64,000 nt of DNA from Hymenobacter sp. DG25B (GTDB lineage Bacteria > Bacteroidota > Bacteroidia > Cytophagales > Hymenobacteraceae), in contig NZ_CP010054.1 in the NCBI RefSeq assembly GCF_000801315.1, positions 3,782,001 to 3,846,000 on the forward strand. Direction: 5' to 3'. The notes below the pieces were generated by a model, which worked only from the letters and a program-made list of their open reading frames with translations, searched no databases and had not been told where the DNA came from. Below are positions 6,638-41,344 of this stretch, piece by piece (the first letter of the stretch is position 1; every line of letters begins with the position of its first letter). Both the position numbers and the translations under genes were made by a program.

Positions 6638-7180
6638 TTAGCCGTTCGACTTCAGGGAGTTCATGATTTGCTTGGCTACCATTTCCCACTCGGGCTTCTG
6701 ACGGTCAGCGCAGGTGAAAGTGCACATGAGCAGTTTGCCTTCCACATCGGTGAAGAAAATCAGGTTGTATACCTCGTGGCCCAACTCAGGCTTCATCAGC
6801 TCCAGGTAGCCTACGTGGCGGCCGCTTACGTCCTTCATGCCTTTCCCAAACCACTTGGCTTCGGGAAACTGCTTGGAGTAGGTCTTGATGAAGTTGTCCG
6901 TGTACATTTGGATCATATCCTGATCCGCCGTGTTATCGGTATAGGTGAAGGAAATGCTGGCCTCCTTGCTGTTGGTATAAATAACGCTGGGGCGGCTCTG
7001 GGCTTTGGCATAGATGAAGTCCATCTGCTGCTCGCTCATCACCTCAAAACCTTTGGGGATAAGAATCTCAACCCGCTCACTTAGAACGCGCTTCTTGATA
7101 AGTTCAACTTCTGCGGCAGGACGGGCAGCCATGAGCAGAAGCATCAGGCTGAATACTGGGAAGAGTAGAGCTTTTTTCAT
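6638..7180 (-). CDS. Small secreted protein, possibly DcrB/PsbP-like
   Basis: 180-residue protein with a clear signal peptide (MKKALLFPVFSLMLLLMAARPA). The mature part reads like a single compact alpha/beta domain: an opening strand with IPKGFEVMSEQQ, a strand ASISFTYTDN, a helix around DMIQMYTDNFIKTYSKQFP, then GRHVGYLELMKPELGHEVYNLIFFTDVEGKLL and a C-terminal helix. This order resembles DcrB/PsbP-type domains, but I do not recognise a specific family and the assignment is tentative. It has one cysteine near the C-terminus (TFTCADRQ). It is separated from yicC upstream by a 333-base AT-rich gap that holds a likely promoter. Confidence 0.85.
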   Translation of the reverse strand: MKKALLFPVFSLMLLLMAARPAAEVELIKKRVLSERVEILIPKGFEVMSEQQMDFIYAKAQSRPSVIYTNSKEASISFTYTDNTADQDMIQMYTDNFIKTYSKQFPEAKWFGKGMKDVSGRHVGYLELMKPELGHEVYNLIFFTDVEGKLLMCTFTCADRQKPEWEMVAKQIMNSLKSNG

Positions 7181-7513
7181 AGTCGTAGGCAGAAAAAAGA
7201 TGGAATCAATCTATGGAAAGGACCGTATCAGCAGAAAAATCCAACTGTTCGGATAACACAATTTACTTACAATATCCGGAGTCGCAAGTATTTCGCAAAA
7301 AATATTTTAGCGACACCGATACCAATTCTCTCTACTTGTGGTAGAAAAGACCAATGAGTGAGATACTCAGCGTTTTGGATGAGCAAATATAAGAACGATT
7401 TAAATAGGCAAGCCTAAAATTGTTCAATTTTTCACTAAAAATTAATATCCCATTCGTTATCGGATTAATTCTATTAGCGTGCTCTATCTACGGAAATTGG
7501 GGCCAAGTTGGAT
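7181..7513. other. AT-rich intergenic region between yicC and the small secreted protein gene
   Basis: No coding sequence is supported. On the minus strand TATATTTG (plus positions 7384-7391) fits the Bacteroidota -7 box TAnnTTTG, with a TTG at 7409-7411, 17 bases further upstream, as a possible -33 element. It would drive the gene at 6638-7180 with a leader of about 200 bases. Base composition from 7260 to 7500 is visibly more AT-rich than the flanking genes. Confidence 0.4.
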
Positions 7514-8407
7514 TTAGAGAATATTGTTGATTTGCTCTTTTATTTTCTCCAGCTCTTCCTTCATTTCCACTACTAAGTGCTGAATCACAGGGTCGTTGGC
7601 CTTGGAACCGATAGTATTTATTTCCCGCCCAATCTCCTGCGAGATAAAAGCCAGCTTTTTGCCCGTGGGTTCGGGCAGAAATACTGTTTCGTTAAAATAA
7701 TGCAAATGACTGATCAACCGGACCTTTTCTTCGGCAATGTCCAGCTTCTCGATGTAGTAGAGCAGTTCCTGCTCAAAACGGTTGGCATTGAACTGCTCAG
7801 AGGTGCTTAAATCGGCCAGATGAGCCCGTAGCTTTTCCCGGATGGTGTCTACCCGCACCGGGTCGTGGCGGTCTACATCGGCCAGCAGAATGCGGATCCG
7901 GTCAATGTAGCTCAGGATTTCGGTGGTCAGGGTCTGGCCTTCATCCTGCCGGAACTGATTAAGCTTATCCAGCGCTTCCTGTACCACGGGCTGCAATTCC
8001 TCCCAGGACAAGGCCTCGGTCTCGTCGGGGCGGGCGGCTTCAGACGGGCTTTGAATAATGCCGGGCATCTTCAGGGCCAAAGCAAACAGGTCAGTTTTGG
8101 GCGCGCCTACCAGCTCCGCCGCGCGGGATAACTCCTCATAAGCGGCCACCAGGGCTTCCTGGTTGAGGGCAAACTGCACGGAGGCCGTGGTACGGGGGCG
8201 GCTGAAGTCAACGCTCAGGTTGATTTTGCCGCGGCCCAGCGCCCGGGTGACCATGTTGCGGATTTCCAGCTCCTTATCATTGAGAAAGCGCGGCAGGCGC
8301 AGGCTCAGGTCCAGGCCTTTTGAGTTCAGGGATTTGGCTTCAACAACGAGAGAATACTGGTCGGTTTCGCGGGTGGCGGTACCGTAGCCGGTCATGGATT
8401 GGAGCAT
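7514..8407 (-). CDS. yicC: YicC/YloC family endoribonuclease
   Basis: 297-residue cytoplasmic protein of the YicC family, recently described as an RNA endonuclease. The diagnostic N-terminus MLQSMTGYGTATR is present, followed by VEAKSLNSKGLDL and LRLPRFLNDKELEIR, and the C-terminal DUF1732 part ends in KANDPVIQHLVVEMKEELEKIKEQINNIL; family members normally end in exactly this NV...ILNIE-like helix. Full length. In many Bacteroidota yicC is followed by gmk (guanylate kinase); that partner is not next to it here, where the next gene downstream is a small secreted protein after a 333-base gap. Confidence 0.93.
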   Translation of the reverse strand: MLQSMTGYGTATRETDQYSLVVEAKSLNSKGLDLSLRLPRFLNDKELEIRNMVTRALGRGKINLSVDFSRPRTTASVQFALNQEALVAAYEELSRAAELVGAPKTDLFALALKMPGIIQSPSEAARPDETEALSWEELQPVVQEALDKLNQFRQDEGQTLTTEILSYIDRIRILLADVDRHDPVRVDTIREKLRAHLADLSTSEQFNANRFEQELLYYIEKLDIAEEKVRLISHLHYFNETVFLPEPTGKKLAFISQEIGREINTIGSKANDPVIQHLVVEMKEELEKIKEQINNIL

Positions 8408-32267: not shown

Positions 32268-35200
32268 TTGCAGGTCTCCGATTTCCTCAAGCTCTATACC
32301 CTGGACCCCACCGTGCTGACCATTGGGGCCCGCCTGAACCCAGCCACGCGCAACAGCCTGCGCGCTGAAGCCAACGCCCCGGCCGCGCCCGTGCGCCTGC
32401 ATCTGCGCGGCCTGGTGGGCAGCCAGGATGCCGTGCTGGCCGCCGCCCTGCACCAGGACTTTCCCGATCAGCACCATCTGTTTATTCTGCACGACCGGGA
32501 AGAGGCGGCCTACTTCCTGGCCGACCTGCAGCACCTGGTGCCCGACGAGGAGCCTTTGCTTTTCCCCAGCTCCTACAAGCGCCCCTACGCCTTCGATGAG
32601 ACGGAAAACGCCAACGTGCTGATGCGGGCCGAGGTGCTGAACAAGCTCAACTCCCACCGCGGCCCCAAAACCACCGCCGAGCAGGCCGCCGAAGATGCCG
32701 ACGATGCTTTGCCGGAAGGCGACGCCACAGCCCGGAGCAGGAAAATCAGCGTGAAGGACACGGCCGGCGCGCTGATTGTGACGTACCCGGAGGCACTGTT
32801 TGAGAAGGTTATCAACAAGAAGAGCTTAGTTGCCAACACTTTTATTGTGAAGGTGGGCGACAAGCTGGACGTGAACTTCATCAGCGACATGCTGGCGGAG
32901 TATGACTTTGAGCGTTCCGACTTTGTGTATGAGGCGGGGCAGTTTGCGGTGCGCGGCGGTATCGTGGATATCTTCTCGTACGCCAACGAATTGCCCTACC
33001 GTATTGAATTGTTTGGCGACGAGGTAGAAACCATCCGCACGTTTGACCCCGAGAGCCAGCTGTCGGTGGAGAAGCGCCAGCAGGTGAGCATTATTCCCAA
33101 CGTGCAGACCAAGCTGCTGCAGGAAACGCGGGAGGCTTTTCTGGACTTCATTCCAAAGAACACCGCCATCTGGGCTAAGGATGTGCGCCAGACCCTGGAC
33201 GTGGTGGAGGAATCCTTTGAGCGGGCCGAGCTGGGCTTTAAGGAGATGCTGGAATCTGCCGGCGGCGTGCAGATTGTGAGCAAGCCGGAGGATTTGTTCG
33301 AGACGGGCAAATCATTCAAAAAGCTGCTGGAGAACTTCCCCATCGTGGAGTTCGGCAAGCGCTTCCACTTCAAGGGCGGCGAGGATTTCACCTTCACGGC
33401 CAAGCCGCAGCCTTCGTTCAACAAGGACTTCAACCGGCTGGTGAAAAACCTGCACGAGAACCAGGAGAAGGGCTACGTCAATATTATTGGGGCGGAATCC
33501 GTGCGGCAGGCGGACCGGCTGCGCACCATCTTTGATGAGCTGGACAACAACGTGCAGTTTCAGCACCTGCTGCTGGGCCTGCGCGAAGGCTTTATTGATG
33601 ACATGCTGAAGCTGGTGGTGTACACCGACCACCAGCTGTTCGAGCGTTTCTACCGGGCGCAGGAAGGGCGCAAGTTCTCCAAGAAAAAGGCCCTTACGCT
33701 AAAAGAGCTGCGCACCCTGGTGCCCGGCGACTACGTGGTGCACCAGGACTACGGCATTGCCCGCTTTGCCGGCCTCACGCAGGTAGAAATCAACGACCGG
33801 CTGCAGGAGGCCATCCGCCTCGTGTACCGCGACGACGACGTGCTGACCGTGAGCATTCATGCCCTGCACAAAATTGCCAAGTACTCCGGGGCCGAGGGCA
33901 CGCCGCCCACTATGAGCAAGCTGGGCTCGCCGGAGTGGGAAAACAAGAAGAAGTCCGTCAAGAAAAAGGTGAAGGACATTGCCGCCGAGCTGATTCGGCT
34001 GTACGCCAAGCGCAAAACCGCGCCGGGCCACGCCTTCGCCCACGACTCCTTTATGCAGGCCGAGCTGGAATCGAGCTTCATTTACGAGGACACGCCCGAC
34101 CAGGGCAAGGCCACCGAGGACGTGAAGCGCGACATGGAGCAGCCCCACCCCATGGACCGCCTCGTGTGCGGCGACGTGGGCTTCGGCAAAACCGAGGTAG
34201 CCATTCGGGCCGCCTTCAAATCCGTGGCCGATGGCAAGCAGGTGGCCGTGCTGGTGCCCACCACCATTCTGGCCATGCAGCACTACAAAACCTTCCGGGA
34301 GCGGCTGGCGGCCCTGCCCGTCACGGTGGAGTACGTGAACCGCTTCAAAAGCACCAAGCAGATTAAGGAAACGCTGGGCCGCGTGGCCGAGGGCAAAACC
34401 GACATCCTCATCGGCACACACCGCCTCACCAACAAGGACATCAAGTTCAAAGACCTGGGCCTGCTCATCATTGATGAAGAGCAGAAGTTCGGGGTGAAAA
34501 CCAAGGACAAGCTCAAGGAGCTGAAGGTGAACGTGGACACGCTCACCCTCTCGGCCACGCCCATTCCGCGCACCCTGCACTTCTCCCTCATGGGCGCCCG
34601 CGACCTCAGCGTAATTGCCACGCCGCCGCCCAACCGCCAGCCGGTGCAAACGGAATTGCACGTGTTTGATGAGCTGCTGATTCGCGACGCCGTGGCGCGG
34701 GAGCTGAAGCGCGGCGGGCAGGTGTTTTTCGTGCACAACCGCGTGAAGGACATTGAGGAGCTGGCCAACATGATTTTGCGCCTGGTGCCCGATGCCCGCG
34801 TGACCTACATCCACGGGCAGATGGAGGGCGACCTGCTGGAAAAGCGCATGATGAAGTTTGTGGACGGCGAGTACGACGTGCTGGTGAGCACCAACCTGAT
34901 TGAGTCGGGCCTGGATATTCCCAACGCCAATACCATCATCATCAACCGCGCCCATCTCTTTGGGCTGAGTGATTTGCACCAGATGCGAGGCCGCGTGGGC
35001 CGTTCCAACAAGAAGGCCTACTGCTACCTGCTCACGCCCCCGGTGGCGGGCCTGCCCGCCGATGCCCGCAAGCGCCTGAGCACCCTGGAAGAATTCTCCG
35101 ACCTTGGCGACGGCTTCAAAGTAGCCATGCGCGACCTGGATATCCGGGGTGCGGGCAACCTGCTGGGCGGCGAGCAGTCGGGCTTTATTAATGACCTGGG

Positions 35201-35792
35201 CTTTGAGACCTACCACCAGATTCTGGACGAGGCGGTGCAGGAGCTGAAGGAAACCGAGTTCCGCGACCTGTTCCTCGGCGACCCTACCCAGCGCCTGCAG
35301 GAAGCCGCCGCCACCAAAGGACCCAAGGAGTGCAACATTGAAACCGACCTGCAAATCCTGATTCCCGACCACTACGTGAGCAACGTCTCGGAGCGCCTGC
35401 AGCTGTATAGCAAGCTGGACCGCGTGAAAGGCCCCGAGGAGCTGCGCAAGCTGGTGGCTGGCATTGTGGACCGCTTTGGGCCGCTACCCCAGGAAGTGGA
35501 ACAGCTGGCCGACATTGTGCGCCTGCGCTGGCAGGCCTGTCAGGTGGGCTTTGAGAAGCTCACGCTGAAGAAAAACCTCATGAAAGGCTTTATCCCGGCC
35601 ACCAACAACGAGGCCTTCTTCCAGGGCGACGTCTTCGGCAACGTGCTCAGCTACGTGCAAACCCACCCCCGCTCGGCCAGCATGAAAGAGCGCAAAGAGC
35701 AGCTGATTATCTCCTTCGAGGAAGTGAAAAGCGTGCAGGCGGCCAAGCGGATTCTGAGTGAGCTGGGGAGTGAGGAGAAGGTGGGGGTGTAG
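32268..35792 (+). CDS. mfd: Transcription-repair coupling factor Mfd
   Basis: 1174-residue DNA translocase that removes stalled RNA polymerase at lesions and recruits UvrA. The UvrB-like N-terminal part (about 1-330) contains [13 protein letters not shown] and [31 protein letters not shown]. The RNA-polymerase-interacting domain is about 480-560 ([20 protein letters not shown]). The RecG-like motor has Walker A GDVGFGKT (635-642), DEEQ at 736-739, [15 protein letters not shown] and QMRGRVGRS. The C-terminal TRCF domain ends the protein. The start must be TTG 32268: an in-frame TAG at 32253 closes the frame upstream and no ATG/GTG precedes conserved sequence. No terminator follows before the AT-rich ATPase gene. 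Confidence 0.96.
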   Translation: [1174 protein letters not shown]

Positions 35793-35950
35793 GGATTATG
35801 TCCATTCGCAGGGGTGACATTTTATTGAATTTCAGCATGTCATTTAAGAATCTATCCCATTAAGTAACATAAGTTACCATGAGCTGCTTATCGTTGATTA
35901 CCTAAAAATATTCATTAATATGCAGGGTTTTAACATTAACCCAACTAACT
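35793..35950. other. AT-rich junction between mfd and the ATPase-TOPRIM gene
   Basis: Composition changes sharply from GC-rich to AT-rich soon after the mfd stop. TGACAT (35815-35820) is inverted at 35837-35842, GTAAC-ATAA-GTTAC forms a small palindrome near 35865-35880, and GGGTT (35925-35929) is inverted at 35938-35942, just before the ATG at 35951. The last could be an operator. No clear TAnnTTTG box was found. Confidence 0.35.
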
Positions 35951-38071
35951 ATGGTAGCCTTTTTCAAAAAAGAAAATAATGTTTATTATTTCGATAATGA
36001 ATCAGAAGACGCTTTTGAAGGATTTAGATTTGAAAGCTATATGAATATGGTCTACTTTACGCCTATCAACAAAGTAAATATACTAATAGGAGCGAATAAT
36101 TCTGGCAAGAGTAGATTCATGCGCGCCATTATAAAAAACAATTCAATAATTACAACAAATGAAAATAGCATTATCAACAAACTTAAACAATTATCTGACC
36201 TCGCAAGGAAAGCTGAGGATATTTTACCAAACGAAGTATTTCTAAATTTTCAAACAACAGCAAGAGTAGAAATAACTGATCAAATTATTATTAACGAAAG
36301 TCACAAAAGACTATTACTACGCAATAGAGAGCCACAAGATTATCCAATAAGCAGAGAATCAGTTATTAATAGTATAAAACATATTACTAGTTCATTTTAT
36401 ACAATGAGAGGCGCGGGCCTTAAAGCCGGAATTACACTCCAATCTGACATATTGATAATAGCTTATAATATATATATTTTAAACAAAGACAAAGTTGAAA
36501 AATGGGGCATATTTCCATTTGAAGGATTATCAAAAACATTGTCTTATGAAATATTTGATGATTCCGAAGAGATAATAAATTTATTACAAGAAATATCTTC
36601 TGTTTCATCAGAAATTGCTGATATAAAAATAAATAACGATATATTAAACAAGATCTACATTCCTATATTAAGATCAGCACGAACACTTCACACCTCCAAT
36701 CTGGTAAGTTCCGATATTGACAAAAGCGTATTAAACGATACAATTTCATCAATATTCAAATTTACAATAGCGCAAGACTACTCACTTCCATTGAATGACA
36801 CTAACCTACAGATTGAAACTGGACTAAATTTATTCTCTTTAATAAAAGACGCAAATAATTCATTACAACACGCGAGAAGACCTTTTAAAGCATTTGTTAA
36901 TTTTATTTCTATCAATTTTTTTAATGGAAAACATGTTGAATTAATTGCACCACCAGCAGAAGGAATAGAGAGAGAAAATATTGCCGTAGAAATAGAAGAT
37001 GAAGAACGCCCGATACAATATTTAGGAGACGGAGTGCAATCATTATTGATAATGCTCTATCCTATATTTACAGCAAAGCCTAATTCATGGATCTTTATAG
37101 AAGAGCCAGAAACACATCTACACCCAGGATTACAAAGAATTTTTTTAGAAACAATTATTAACGACCCAACCATTATAAGTAAAAATTTGACTATATTTTT
37201 CACCACACATTCAAATCACCTTTTATCTGTAAGTCTAGAAGAAAAACAAGACATAAACATATTCACTTTTGAAAAAATAAAAATAGATAACAAAAGTGTA
37301 TGTGATATAAGAGCTGTTAAATCAAAAGATCTAACGATATTAAACAAACTAGAAGTACACAACTCCTCTGTATTCATTTCAAATTGTTCTATATGGGTTG
37401 AAGGACCAACTGACAGAATATATTTTCGTATTTATCTTAATAATTATATAAAAAAATATAAAAAGCCAATCATACATGAAGATTTACATTATTCGTTTTT
37501 AGAATATGCCGGATCTAATTTATCACATTATATATTCCAAGAAACGGAAGATGACGATATGTTAGAAAATGAAAAACTAATTAAGACTATTAATGCTTTA
37601 TCAATAGCAAATAGAATTATTTTAATTTCCGATTCTGACTCAGGAAAAGAAAAAAAGCATGAAAATCTTAAAAAGCAAATCAGCAAAAATTTCTCCTATT
37701 ATAGAATACCTGTCCGAGAAGTAGAAAATCTTTTATCACCAAAATCTCTATCAGATATTATCCCAAAAGCAATTAAAAAAATACGCCCTGAAGACATGAA
37801 CCGAATTTCCTTTAATGAATCAGAATATAAAGATATTTATATGGGAAATTATCTAAAGAGCAAGCTTCCGATAGAAAAGTTACCTAAAGGGTTTACTGCT
37901 GAAAGCGGTACTCTAAGCACATTACACAAAAACAGCTTTGCTAAATATGCTTCAAATCATGTTTCCTGGGATGATATGACTGAAAGCGCACAAGATTTAG
38001 CAAAAGAGCTTTATACTTTCATCAGTAAACACAACTATATAGATCATGATGATGAATTACAGATAACCTAA
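35951..38071 (+). CDS. OLD/PARIS-like fused AAA ATPase-TOPRIM protein, candidate phage-defence nuclease
   Basis: 706 residues. The N-terminal ABC-type ATPase (AAA_15/21-like) has Walker A GANNSGKS at 47-54, a signature-like LGDGVQSLL at 358-366, Walker B IFIEEPETHLHP (381-392) and the H-loop FFTTHSNHLL (416-425). The C-terminal part has TOPRIM-like acidic motifs: WVEGPTDRIYF with E484 and D488, and LISDSDS with D561 and D563, followed by REVENLLSP (589-597), a block also seen in DUF4435 proteins. OLD nucleases and the PARIS pair AriA/AriB use these parts; here both are in one chain. Base composition is far more AT-rich than all neighbours, which points to recent transfer. There is no second gene next to it, so it may act alone. 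Defence activity is inferred, not shown. Confidence 0.85.
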   Translation: MVAFFKKENNVYYFDNESEDAFEGFRFESYMNMVYFTPINKVNILIGANNSGKSRFMRAIIKNNSIITTNENSIINKLKQLSDLARKAEDILPNEVFLNFQTTARVEITDQIIINESHKRLLLRNREPQDYPISRESVINSIKHITSSFYTMRGAGLKAGITLQSDILIIAYNIYILNKDKVEKWGIFPFEGLSKTLSYEIFDDSEEIINLLQEISSVSSEIADIKINNDILNKIYIPILRSARTLHTSNLVSSDIDKSVLNDTISSIFKFTIAQDYSLPLNDTNLQIETGLNLFSLIKDANNSLQHARRPFKAFVNFISINFFNGKHVELIAPPAEGIERENIAVEIEDEERPIQYLGDGVQSLLIMLYPIFTAKPNSWIFIEEPETHLHPGLQRIFLETIINDPTIISKNLTIFFTTHSNHLLSVSLEEKQDINIFTFEKIKIDNKSVCDIRAVKSKDLTILNKLEVHNSSVFISNCSIWVEGPTDRIYFRIYLNNYIKKYKKPIIHEDLHYSFLEYAGSNLSHYIFQETEDDDMLENEKLIKTINALSIANRIILISDSDSGKEKKHENLKKQISKNFSYYRIPVREVENLLSPKSLSDIIPKAIKKIRPEDMNRISFNESEYKDIYMGNYLKSKLPIEKLPKGFTAESGTLSTLHKNSFAKYASNHVSWDDMTESAQDLAKELYTFISKHNYIDHDDELQIT

Positions 38072-38091
38072 TACTAACTGGCACAAATCCC

Positions 38092-38137
38092 TGCGCCGGC
38101 CCGCTTCACCCCCGAAGCCGGCCGGCGCAACTTTTTT
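38092..38137 (+). terminator. GC-rich terminator after the AT-rich gene
   Basis: TGCGCCGGC (38092-38100) is perfectly inverted at 38121-38129, with an inner GCTTC/GAAGC stem, followed by ACTTTTTTT. It is GC-rich like the host genome, unlike the gene it follows, and may originally have been the mfd terminator. Confidence 0.88.
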
Positions 38138-38216
38138 TCTGGCCCCTTTTGGGCGGCTTTTGCCGCATATTATTGATGTAAATAAGCTGTAAGTGCCACT
38201 ACCCTACCTCGCCCAT

Positions 38217-38289
38217 CTGGCGCGAGCTTGTAGCTCGTGCCCAGCCAGGAGGATGAGGTTGTACCTCATCTGCCGCAACGCGGCAAACC
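38217..38289. repeat. Composite hairpin repeat, copy 1 (left half)
   Basis: Three adjacent hairpins, each with a three-base loop: GGCGCGAGCT-TGT-AGCTCGTGCC (38219-38241), GATGAGGT-TGT-ACCTCATC (38252-38270) and TGCCGC-AAC-GCGGCA (38271-38285). The 41 bases 38249-38289 are identical to 40417-40457. The right half seen in the other copies is missing. Confidence 0.88.
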
Positions 38290-38313
38290 ATAACTGCCCC
38301 CGTTAATGCATAG

Positions 38314-38377: not shown

Positions 38378-40072
38378 TTAGTGCTGCACCTGCAGCCGCA
38401 ATTGGGTGGCTTGTCCATTGTGGAGCAGCCGGCAGGTATACAGGCCTTCGCTCAGGTTGGCCGTGGATAAGGGCAGCGTATGCCAGCCGGTAGCAGTGTT
38501 GGAAGCCAGTAGTTGCGTGGCTACCAGGATGCCCAGCTGGTTGTACACCCGCAGCTCAGCCGCGCCGGCCTGTGGCAGATAGTAGCGCAGCTGCACCTCA
38601 GCCCCGGCTGGGTTCGGGAAGGCTGCCAGCGCCAGCTGCACGGGGCGGGCACCCACTTCCAGCGGGGCCAGCGCCGCCATGTGCGGGCCGTTACCGTGGT
38701 TGGTTTTGCCGTATTTCAGCGTAACGTAATCAAACTGAAATTCGCCGGCTACAGAAGCGGAACCACTCACGTACACGTTGCCGGCGGGGTCTACGGCCAC
38801 GGAGCCGGCCCGGTCGGCGTGGGAGGCGGGGCCATTGAAGCGGGCGCGCCACTGCTCTTGGCCGGTGCGGCCGTCGTACATAAGCGTGACGATGTCCTCA
38901 TCGCCGCTGGTGTTGTCGCTGTTGTTGAAGACAGTGCCCGTCACGTACACGTTTCCGGCCATATCTACGTCGATGCCCGTGGCGGCGTCGTTGTAGCCCC
39001 CATCGTAGGTCGTGCGCCACAGCTCCTGCCCGGTGCGGGGGTCAAATTTTATGGTGAGGTAGTCGGAGTTGCTGCCGTTATACGATCCGCCGGTGAGGTA
39101 AAGGCCATTGAGCCGGCTCAGCGCCAGGCGGCCATCCCACCCGGCGGCGTCGGCTACCCAAAGCTGCTGGCCGGTGCGCCCGTTGTATTTCACGGTGGCA
39201 CTGCCGGTTACATATACGTCGCCGCGTACATCTACCACCATGTCGCCCGCATGGTCTTCCTGGTTGTTTGGGCCGTCGTAGCGGGATTCCCAGAGTGCCT
39301 GGCCGGTGCGCCCGTTGTATTTGATGGTCACGATGTCAAACAGCCCCTCGGAGCTGCTTTTGGCCGAGGTGCCAGTGACATACACATCCCCGCTCAAGCT
39401 CACGGCAATGGAGCTGGCAAAGTCGCCGAACCCGTAGGAGCTGTCGTAGAGCGTGGCCCAGAGCTGCTGGCCAGTGCGGCCGTCGTACTTCACGGTGGCG
39501 TAGTCGTAGAAGTCGCCGTTGGAGGATGACCCGGTCACGTAAACGTTGCCCAATAGGTCGAGGGCAATGTCGGTGGGCTGGTCGTCGTAATCAGCAGGGC
39601 CATTGTAGCGCGCCGCCCAGAGTTGCTCCCCCGTGCGGCCATCGTACTTCACAATGGCGTAGTCGGCAATAAAGAACGCGCTGCTCATTGAGTAGCCGGT
39701 TACGTACACGTCGCCGCGCGCGTCTACCGCAATAGCGCGGGCCTGGTCGTCGCTGTCGGCGGGGCCGTTGTAGCGCGCCTTCCAGAGCTCCTTTCCCGTG
39801 CGCCGATCATACTTGACGGTGGCAAAATCGGCGTAGCCGTTGCCCGGATTAGCGGAGCTCCCCGTCACGTACACATCCCCATTCCGGCTTAGCGCCAGGA
39901 GGCCGCCAAAGTCGTAGCTATCAGCCGGGCCGTTGTAGTAGGAAACCCAGGTTGCGGAAAGGGCGGGCACCTTTTTACTCCCCGCGGTGCGGGTAGTGGG
40001 CGTGGCCTGGGCTCCTTCGGGCAGCAGCAGCAGCATACCAATCAGCAGATAGGGAATACCGGATAATTTCAT
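38378..40072 (-). CDS. T9SS-exported SBBP-repeat (beta-propeller-like) protein
   Basis: 564 residues from ATG 40072 (signal peptide MKLSGIPYLLIGMLLLLPEGAQA); the frame extends to 40129 but that part is not signal-like. The body holds about eight to nine repeats of ~50 residues with the core GDVYVTGSS ... DYATVKYDGRTGQQLW ... YNGPADYDD, the SBBP (beta-propeller) repeat. Such repeats form a propeller, often used for surface binding; no catalytic residues are evident. The tail LALAAFPNPAGAEVQLRYYL ... LSEGLYTCRLL is a T9SS type A sorting domain, so it should be secreted through the SprA system and attached or released outside. It lies in the accessory part of the window between copies 1 and 2 of the hairpin repeat. 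Confidence 0.9.
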   Translation of the reverse strand: MKLSGIPYLLIGMLLLLPEGAQATPTTRTAGSKKVPALSATWVSYYNGPADSYDFGGLLALSRNGDVYVTGSSANPGNGYADFATVKYDRRTGKELWKARYNGPADSDDQARAIAVDARGDVYVTGYSMSSAFFIADYAIVKYDGRTGEQLWAARYNGPADYDDQPTDIALDLLGNVYVTGSSSNGDFYDYATVKYDGRTGQQLWATLYDSSYGFGDFASSIAVSLSGDVYVTGTSAKSSSEGLFDIVTIKYNGRTGQALWESRYDGPNNQEDHAGDMVVDVRGDVYVTGSATVKYNGRTGQQLWVADAAGWDGRLALSRLNGLYLTGGSYNGSNSDYLTIKFDPRTGQELWRTTYDGGYNDAATGIDVDMAGNVYVTGTVFNNSDNTSGDEDIVTLMYDGRTGQEQWRARFNGPASHADRAGSVAVDPAGNVYVSGSASVAGEFQFDYVTLKYGKTNHGNGPHMAALAPLEVGARPVQLALAAFPNPAGAEVQLRYYLPQAGAAELRVYNQLGILVATQLLASNTATGWHTLPLSTANLSEGLYTCRLLHNGQATQLRLQVQH

Positions 40073-40716
40073 TGTAAAAGAGAATCTAAACGTAACTTCT
40101 CCCAGACGTGCATAGCACCTGGGAGGCATGTTTACATTATCAGACGGCCGCTGCTGGTTGGCGCGTATACCGTTGCCAACCCTACAGCAGTAACGCAGCA
40201 GGCAAGTCCAGCTTGCCCGGCTGCAACAGGTGGGTTAAGGATGCAGTAATAAAATTATATAAAATAACTTATAATAATTATGGCTTAAATCATTGGCTTA
40301 TAAAAACCAAGGCAAAGTTTATAAACGCCGGATAGCGTAGTCCCGGATCTACTTTTTATTGGATTTACCTCCTCAACTGACGCGGGTTTAGCGTAGCGTA
40401 ACTGGTGACCAGCTTTGAGGATGAGGTTGTACCTCATCTGCCGCAACGCGGCAAACCGGAGCTACCAAACTGGCTAATAAAGGGAGGCGCAGCCTCCCAG
40501 CAACGAAGGCACGAGCTACCAGCTCGCGCCAGTGAGGCGTGTAAGAAATGGTCGGTCAGGTAACAATGAGTAGGCGAACGGTAGGCGTTGAGGGGCTTAT
40601 GTTCCGTATACTGCTTGCCACAGCTACCCCGGTTCGGTTGCCATCCGGCCTACCTTACCTTATTGGGTAGCACCTACTAAATTGCCTTGCTTTTGAACCA
40701 ACATTCCTCCCTGATC
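40073..40716. other. Intergenic region with hairpin repeat copy 2
   Basis: No gene is supported. An AT-rich stretch (about 40240-40335) precedes repeat copy 2 (40417-40532). Between 40600 and 40716 lies the leader of the cupin gene, with TGCTTTTG at 40688-40695 as a weak -7-like box (second base not A). Confidence 0.4.
40417..40532. repeat. Composite hairpin repeat, copy 2
   Basis: Four hairpins with three-base loops in order: GATGAGGT-TGT-ACCTCATC (40420-40438), TGCCGC-AAC-GCGGCA (40439-40453), GGGAGGC-GCA-GCCTCCC (40482-40498) and GGCACGAGCT-ACC-AGCTCGCGCC (40508-40530). The last is the inverted counterpart of the first hairpin of copy 1, so the complete element has inverted ends. The left-end hairpin is lost here. 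Confidence 0.88.
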
Positions 40717-41115: not shown

Positions 41116-41164
41116 CCCTGGCCCTGGCCGGAAACACTGGAAGCTGGCCGACTGATTCTCCCGT

Positions 41165-41311
41165 CTGGCGCGTGCTTATCGCTCGTGCCCGGCCAGCAGG
41201 ATGAGGTTGTCCCTCATCGGCCGCAACGCGCCAAGCTGACTTTGCACTGGGTAGCCTACCGGTTGAGGCACAGCCTCACCTCCAGTAAGACACGAGCTAC
41301 AGGCTCGCGTC
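41165..41311. repeat. Composite hairpin repeat, copy 3 (full length, degenerate)
   Basis: All five hairpin positions are present in order: left end CTGGCGCG...CTCGTGCC (41165-41188, eroded), GATGAGG...CCTCATC (41200-41218), GGCCGCAACGCGCC (41219-41232), TGAGGC-ACA-GCCTCA (41264-41278) and GACACGAGCT-ACA-GGCTCGCGTC (41289-41311). The copy has several substitutions, which suggests it is the oldest of the three. Confidence 0.82.
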
Positions 41312-41344
41312 AATTAGTGTACCTGAGCGGGGCAGCCGTGCACG

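Follow-up and report, generated by a model that had tools for sequence, protein, structure and literature searches.

A probable stand-alone OLD-type nuclease in a variable slot behind mfd of Hymenobacter sp. DG25B

The analysed window, a 64-kb stretch of the chromosome of Hymenobacter sp. DG25B (contig NZ_CP010054.1, positions 3,782,001 to 3,846,000), contains a short AT-rich cassette directly behind mfd, the gene of the transcription-repair coupling factor, and this cassette carries a single gene whose product joins an ATPase to a TOPRIM domain. The guanine-plus-cytosine (GC) content drops to 29-30% at 36-38 kb, against mostly 53-65% in the rest of the window, and the cassette is the only AT-rich run of at least 800 bp within it; a second, weaker dip (45%) occurs at window positions 7001-8000. 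The foreign composition pointed out in a preliminary description of this DNA is thus evident. The gene starts 158 bp 3' of the mfd stop codon in the same orientation and is the sole open reading frame (ORF) of its cassette; the flanking genes were named by reading rather than by hidden Markov models (HMMs). A DNA alignment with seven relatives ends at the mfd stop codon (35792/35793), and in many of the slot loci surveyed below DNA homology sets in again close to where the AT-rich run stops. The features are listed in the table, and loci and genomes that have to be told apart carry L and G numbers.

The N-terminal part of the protein is an ATPase of the ABC/AAA_15 type in which Walker A, Walker B and the His switch are all intact, and Pfam reports AAA_15 (72.6 bits, cut-off 32.1) as well as AAA_21. 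In the predicted model a TOPRIM fold is present in the C-terminal part, and the first structural matches of this part in a fold search are OLD proteins. Of 7992 candidates scored in a protein database search, 2316 reached E<=1e-3, and the 120 listed among them were the source of alignments of 40 and of 111 proteins (own included). The Walker motifs and the TOPRIM-like acids on which the preliminary description based a single-chain ATPase-TOPRIM protein are real and conserved without exception; none of the 111 aligned proteins departs from E484, G485, D488, D561, D563, E590, E592, N593 or K660.

These invariant residues repeat the order and the local spacing of the active site of Burkholderia pseudomallei OLD, where, according to the available text of the source, metal A is held via E400, D455 and D457, metal B via E404, T506 and E508, and K562 is the catalytic lysine (PMC6755086). 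E484 and D488 lie four residues apart, like 400 and 404, followed by D561-x-D563, by E590-x-E592 in the manner of T506-x-E508, and then by K660. Moreover, E484, D488, E592 and K660 coincide with their counterparts in an alignment (A7) with two OLD-like proteins from the mfd slot of other genomes (L167 and L178, 17% identity), in which the DxD stretch is unconfirmed, both proteins having a gap there. Judged by residue order rather than by superposed coordinates, the two-metal catalytic residues and the lysine of class 1 OLD are putatively all present. On account of this order and spacing and of the coincidences in the alignment, the REVENLL block, previously described as DUF4435-like, is better read as the metal-B site of OLD. 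Its letters do recur in ATPase-DUF4435 fusions, which read AEVENLL and AEIENLF (L238 has EVENLL), and are therefore not unique to OLD; the DUF4435 label itself is unsupported. Of the profiles that the description had proposed to search for, AAA_15 and AAA_21 were found, OLD TOPRIM remained below its cut-off, and DUF4435 was found neither in the window protein (E<=1) nor in its own genome (E<=0.001), nor among the best 25 of 40 Pfam families for 72 C-termini of the protein family. When the TOPRIM profile is compared with single DUF4435 or OLD sequences by hhalign, all probabilities stay below 15%, the best stretches being EVENLL with DUF4435 and VEGxxD with OLD; a PDB sequence search with the TOPRIM profile gives chance-level matches only.

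Table. Features of the cassette and its surroundings (window coordinates, except for the paralogue)
Feature	Position	Strand	Basis
OLD-type ATPase-TOPRIM gene, 706 amino acids	35951..38071	+	ORF, Pfam, conservation, fold
Walker A, residues 47-54	36089..36112	+	sequence and alignment conservation
Walker B, residues 381-392	37091..37126	+	sequence and alignment conservation
TOPRIM and helical C-terminal part, residues 475-706	37373..38068	+	predicted model, fold matches
REVENLL, residues 589-595, read as OLD metal-B motif	37715..37735	+	mapping inferred from order and spacing
K660, read as counterpart of OLD catalytic lysine K562	37928..37930	+	mapping inferred
AT-rich cassette with a single gene (about 31% GC; right edge approximate)	35793..38100		GC, alignment of relatives
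mfd (transcription-repair coupling factor), left boundary of the slot	32268..35792	+	ORF, name read from sequence
Next gene, GC-rich, convergent, no PADLOC match, not a partner	38378..40129	-	ORF, PADLOC
Interspersed repeat, right end of the cassette	38200..38300	+	11 of 41 inserts (own included) have a relative at their right end
Paralogue locus	L137:10495-12500, own genome C1, about 1.135 Mb		

Because AriA tops the PADLOC ranking of the protein (80.8 bits), a fused PARIS system was the first candidate to be considered; the ATPase of such an AriAB protein would sense a phage anti-restriction protein, and its DUF4435/TOPRIM part would cut host tRNA. PARIS (AriA/AriB and the AriAB fusions, proposed class 4 OLD) has an AAA_15-type ATPase with a TOPRIM effector and the ExEN motif in common with the window protein, AriA is among the Foldseek matches of the window model, EVENLL stands also in the fusion L238, and single-gene AriAB fusions are known, having been described together with PARIS, as far as the accessible part of that paper shows (PMC9122126). 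The AriA match, though, covers residues 39-424, i.e. the ATPase part only, DUF4435 is not detected, the TOPRIM part prefers OLD structures, and OLD-like proteins can be aligned with it at K660 and over the last helix. The best 25 of 73 PADLOC models for the protein do not include AriAB, which excludes little, and the absence of AriB from the fold matches listed for the TOPRIM part excludes nothing. On the strength of the ATPase-only match, the missing DUF4435 and the fold preference we set this candidate aside as rather unlikely.

We consider the gene to encode a stand-alone OLD-type nuclease, class 1 by its context and a known kind of phage-defence protein, with a probability of roughly 80%. 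Class 1 OLD proteins are by definition encoded by single isolated genes and account for 542 of 837 OLD homologues in the available text of the survey (PMC6755086); the class layout is also treated in the accessible part of a review (PMC10568477). Like P2 Old, T. scotoductus OLD and E. coli YbjD/OldB, the window gene is a single gene for an ABC ATPase with a C-terminal TOPRIM, likewise with no helicase or reverse transcriptase (RT) partner seen, and fold and active-site order agree. It differs from them in a TOPRIM part too divergent for the Pfam OLD model, in conserved blocks of its own (ExEN and EYxG), and in its length of 706 residues as compared with 552 in YbjD (PMC13261556, in part). Hence the single-gene layout, presented earlier as a possibly uncommon variant, defines a class already described and is not new as a kind; it may still be uncommon, since isolated class 1 OLD occurs in 0.45% of bacterial genomes according to a figure given second-hand in the available part of the same paper (PMC13261556).

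The best Foldseek match of the whole model is the retron Eco8 / type I-B ATPase-TOPRIM effector, and a phage homologue of the family bears the note 'Retron_I_B__ATPase_TOPRIM'. OLD proteins of Gabija and retrons act in multi-gene systems, as stated in the accessible text of the review (PMC10568477), and the window gene could accordingly be a passenger that needs a missing partner, either a retron RT or a GajB-like helicase. An RT was not seen beside the gene in the ORF list, which was read by eye with no RT HMM, Rfam or non-coding RNA search, and the same reading showed no GajB-type helicase; unlike Gabija GajA, the gene has as neighbours a conserved core gene (mfd) and a convergent GC-rich gene of 583 amino acids. 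Against a passenger stand the catalytic motifs, all intact and invariant, and the neighbourhoods of the family, in which the largest recurrent cluster (10 loci) is a phage repressor and the other clusters read as phage or housekeeping proteins. We rate this alternative the least probable of those considered.

What makes the locus more interesting than its protein, which is of a known kind, is the address behind mfd. The sister genome G112 (99% identity over a 493-residue mfd probe) has another AT-rich cassette, in which four ORFs are at least 100 amino acids long (L156), and genome G015 (98% over the mfd probe) is without an AT-rich cassette at this place; the mfd slot was therefore surveyed. 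The C-terminal half of mfd was matched in 119 of 120 genomes of the genus, own included, and 88 of these 119 loci were read, i.e. 63 of 66 with an mfd identity of at least 87% and 25 of 53 with at most 85%, a clade split that was set after the data had been seen. An AT-rich run was defined by 300-bp windows below 42% GC, a length of at least 800 bp and a start at most 600 bp from the mfd stop codon. Such runs follow mfd in 36 of the 63 closer genomes, and another five (L160, L161, L179, L183, L204) have one directly behind a second, partial mfd 3' end, which gives 41 of 63 as against 0 of 25 in the distant Hymenobacter. Three of the closer genomes, with an mfd identity of 87-88% (L208-L210), are all without an insert, and only one further AT-rich run (L224) lies elsewhere in the downstream regions of about 9 kb. 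The inserts contain one ORF of at least 100 amino acids in 17 cases, two in 18, three in five and four in one, and the longest ORF shares the direction of mfd in 17 inserts and opposes it in 24. By blastp, the 41 mfd-linked inserts fall into 34 groups (35 for 42 inserts with L224), several of which are still distantly related as AAA ATPases. Outside Hymenobacter, 60 of 110 mfd matches from other Bacteroidia were fetched, a non-random choice with 58 usable loci, and mostly ordinary-looking genes follow mfd there; in 7 of 58 (L245, L257, L265, L270, L275, L299, L301) the GC content of the first ORF is lower by 8 points or more than that of the adjoining mfd stretch. Based on these three counts, the slot is intensely used in one Hymenobacter clade, was not observed in the more distant Hymenobacter and is sporadic elsewhere.

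Partial second mfd 3' ends were seen downstream of mfd in L138, L158, L160, L161, L179, L183, L185, L199 and L204. A GC-rich ATPase gene with similar ORF starts recurs in the slot flank (L139:3326-4684, L160, L161, L185). The mfd of one relative (G010:C1:2027992-2031419) is split into two matches, one of them with an internal TGA, and could reflect a frameshift, an assembly error or a broken gene.

With regard to the contents of the slot, one ORF from each of 30 of the 41 inserts was scanned against PADLOC (E<=1e-5); for 27 inserts this was the longest ORF, for L160, L166 and L193 another one. A match was obtained for 17 of 30, ten of them with at least 100 bits, the strong ones including HEC-03B (449 bits), PDC-M48B (300), PDC-S60 (281), PDC-M31A (279), NsnA (214 and 185) and Old (185); those of L136 and L158 are weak. 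The AriA family is matched by 14 of the 41 inserts, a number that does not count 14 PARIS systems because AAA ATPases cross-match many PADLOC models; in L193 an AAA_21 ATPase is paired with a weakly AriB-like protein (34.9 bits). Thirteen of the 30 ORFs have no PADLOC match at this threshold. Among these, Pfam finds NACHT in L141 and L183 (the latter also with SNaCT5), HD-CE in L161 and HATPase together with a weak HSDR_N_2 in L142, and in L181 NACHT narrowly misses its cut-off. The PADLOC-negative ORFs of L140, L159, L165, L166, L168, L174 and L192 are candidates for undescribed defence systems. An integrase match was absent from the ten insert ORFs scanned with Pfam. For comparison, one ORF further downstream was taken per locus. 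Ten such controls scanned singly, hand-picked and short (162-277 amino acids), gave no PADLOC match, and in a control set of 40 members 125 PADLOC families were matched, each by at most two members. One member of this set matches HEC-01A at 5.5e-136, so that the native flank of the slot may hold a defence system, too. Since the set includes antisense shadow ORFs and shorter proteins, the control count is biased low; the contrast between inserts and controls is real, and its size is poorly measured because of the shadow ORFs.

Among 59 genomes searched, four, the own one included, have a match to the window gene at E<=1e-20. The own genome contains a paralogue with 32% identity, which stands alone, has 27% GC and lies 61 bp behind icd (name read from sequence), and the DNA behind icd is AT-rich in 12 of 30 genomes, the best-matching ones with readable flanks (own included; 61 matched; L302-L331). 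The strongest match among 70 loci from genome collections is in a metagenome-assembled genome of Saprospiraceae (L011), 53 bp behind mfd (L011:2399-2453). The gene is poorer in GC than its flanks in 70 of 70 loci (L011-L079 plus the paralogue of the own genome). Members of the family also occur in phage settings: among 17 viral contigs (L081-L097) a CI-like repressor lies within three ORFs of the gene in ten, and a P2-type integrase recurs in six, both named by reading. A homologue of the prophage form from a Vibrio phage, 55.5% identical to the C-terminal part of L090, is flanked by a CI repressor and a 186-type integrase; it is this homologue that bears the retron note quoted above. The prophage form of the family is represented by one record among annotated phages; one prophage homologue had no DNA match in E. 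coli genomes, and of 12 plasmid records none covers 80% of the query. The gene is a good phage-defence candidate, as had been suggested, and its homologues occur in more than housekeeping contexts, although loci in Chryseobacterium and Flavobacterium do keep housekeeping neighbours.

The latter bear on whether the gene could be a domesticated housekeeping ATPase, for example a factor of repair or of the cell cycle resembling archaeal Cran1, as far as the partly available literature describes it, or a partner of Mfd. Its location 158 bp from the end of mfd and co-oriented with it, the position behind mfd in L011 and the recurrent housekeeping neighbours are in line with such a role. The occurrence in only 4 of 59 genomes, the 34 cassette groups in the slot with longest ORFs in both orientations and a GC content far from that of the host speak against it. 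Even where the neighbourhood is fixed, identity reaches 84.6-99.2% for the best flank but 59.7-81.8% for the gene, which lags behind that flank in 43 of 43 pairs. We regard domestication as improbable, clearly more so than a fused PARIS system.

The interpretation as a stand-alone OLD nuclease in a defence slot has to be weighed against several observations. The Pfam OLD-like_TOPRIM model scores 13.2-15.4 bits in the window protein, below its cut-off of 23.2; it is matched at E<=1 by 52 of 72 C-termini of the family, and the cut-off is a database signature, not a defining property of class 1 OLD. The family is not bound to the slot: the three other Hymenobacter homologues lie outside it, no mfd end was found in the fetched flanks of L012-L097, L007-L009 and L137, and L011 is the only homologue locus searched with mfd in its flank. 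Six Chryseobacterium loci (L036, L039, L041, L054, L071, L072) share both flanks, read as ferritin and ychF, a position that could represent either another slot or vertical inheritance, and one or two recurring housekeeping neighbours are common to eight Flavobacterium loci. PADLOC matches among the neighbours of the family are scattered (84 of 122 candidates scanned), the commonest family among the best 25 of 209 being matched by three neighbours, with strong single matches that include GajA and a type IIG restriction enzyme. The controls for the slot are small, hand-picked or not free of hits. Finally, the TOPRIM of the class 1 protein YbjD is dispensable for the anti-phage phenotype in E. 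coli, according to the available part of the source (PMC13261556), so that the mechanism may be other than nuclease action.

At the right end of the cassette lies an interspersed repeat with paired inverted parts and further copies in the window at 40398-40532 and 41160-41312. Its relatives would be expected at about 1.2 insert right ends from their density in 60 loci scanned, as compared with the count given in the table. The repeat may mark the boundary of the cassette, and we take it as a lead rather than as a mechanism.

For the stand-alone OLD nuclease we propose the following course of action. An ABC ATPase head would act as the sensor that carries and gates the C-terminal two-metal TOPRIM nuclease, most likely in a dimer or higher oligomer that the nucleotide-bound ATPase keeps inactive. 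A phage-induced signal would change the state of the ATPase, whereupon the TOPRIM site (E484, D488, D561, D563, E590/E592, K660) could cut nucleic acid and stop the infected cell. Domain layout, predicted fold, active-site conservation, foreign composition and the variable slot are observed; oligomer, gating, trigger and substrate are all presumptive. As substrates, tRNA and DNA are both conceivable, because AriB cleaves specific tRNAs and Gabija cleaves DNA, as reported in the accessible text (PMC12409363), so that the protein could act on tRNA like AriB or on DNA like GajA. The gene itself would have arrived as a single-gene AT-rich cassette in an mfd slot that, in one Hymenobacter clade, is filled with interchangeable defence-like cassettes.

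Taken together, the observations slightly favour a wider model in which mfd and icd of Hymenobacter each offer, at their 3' end, a single-slot docking site for defence, where short AT-rich cassettes are exchanged at the stop codon, the 13 of 30 PADLOC-negative ORFs include undescribed systems, and the window gene belongs to a distinct OLD subfamily. If this holds true, the cassettes would comprise mostly one or two genes with no mobility gene recognised so far, and their exchange would leave duplicated mfd 3' ends and sometimes end at the interspersed repeat. Fixed core-gene flanks with changing defence content are a feature that the mfd slot shares with the core defence hotspots of Pseudomonas aeruginosa (PMC10250203) and the integration hotspots of E. 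coli (PMC10121019), both papers being available in part. The P. aeruginosa hotspot cDHS1 has a median of 26 kb, in contrast to one short AT-rich cassette at the mfd stop codon here, and the median occupancy in E. coli is 8% by the same sources. The word mfd does not occur in the main text of either paper, and the slot is not described in the titles and abstract beginnings retrieved on mfd and defence hotspots, Hymenobacter defence and Bacteroidota core-gene hotspots, a scope that mostly leaves aside subscription papers.

Few stand-alone OLD nucleases have been tested for defence, going by the accessible parts of two sources (PMC10568477, PMC13261556), and the window protein adds a divergent branch to them. 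The slot also poses the question of how such small cassettes, with one or two genes and no evident mobility gene, replace one another at a stop codon. For this Hymenobacter clade, 'what follows mfd' is a simple landmark that appears to enrich for defence-like genes.
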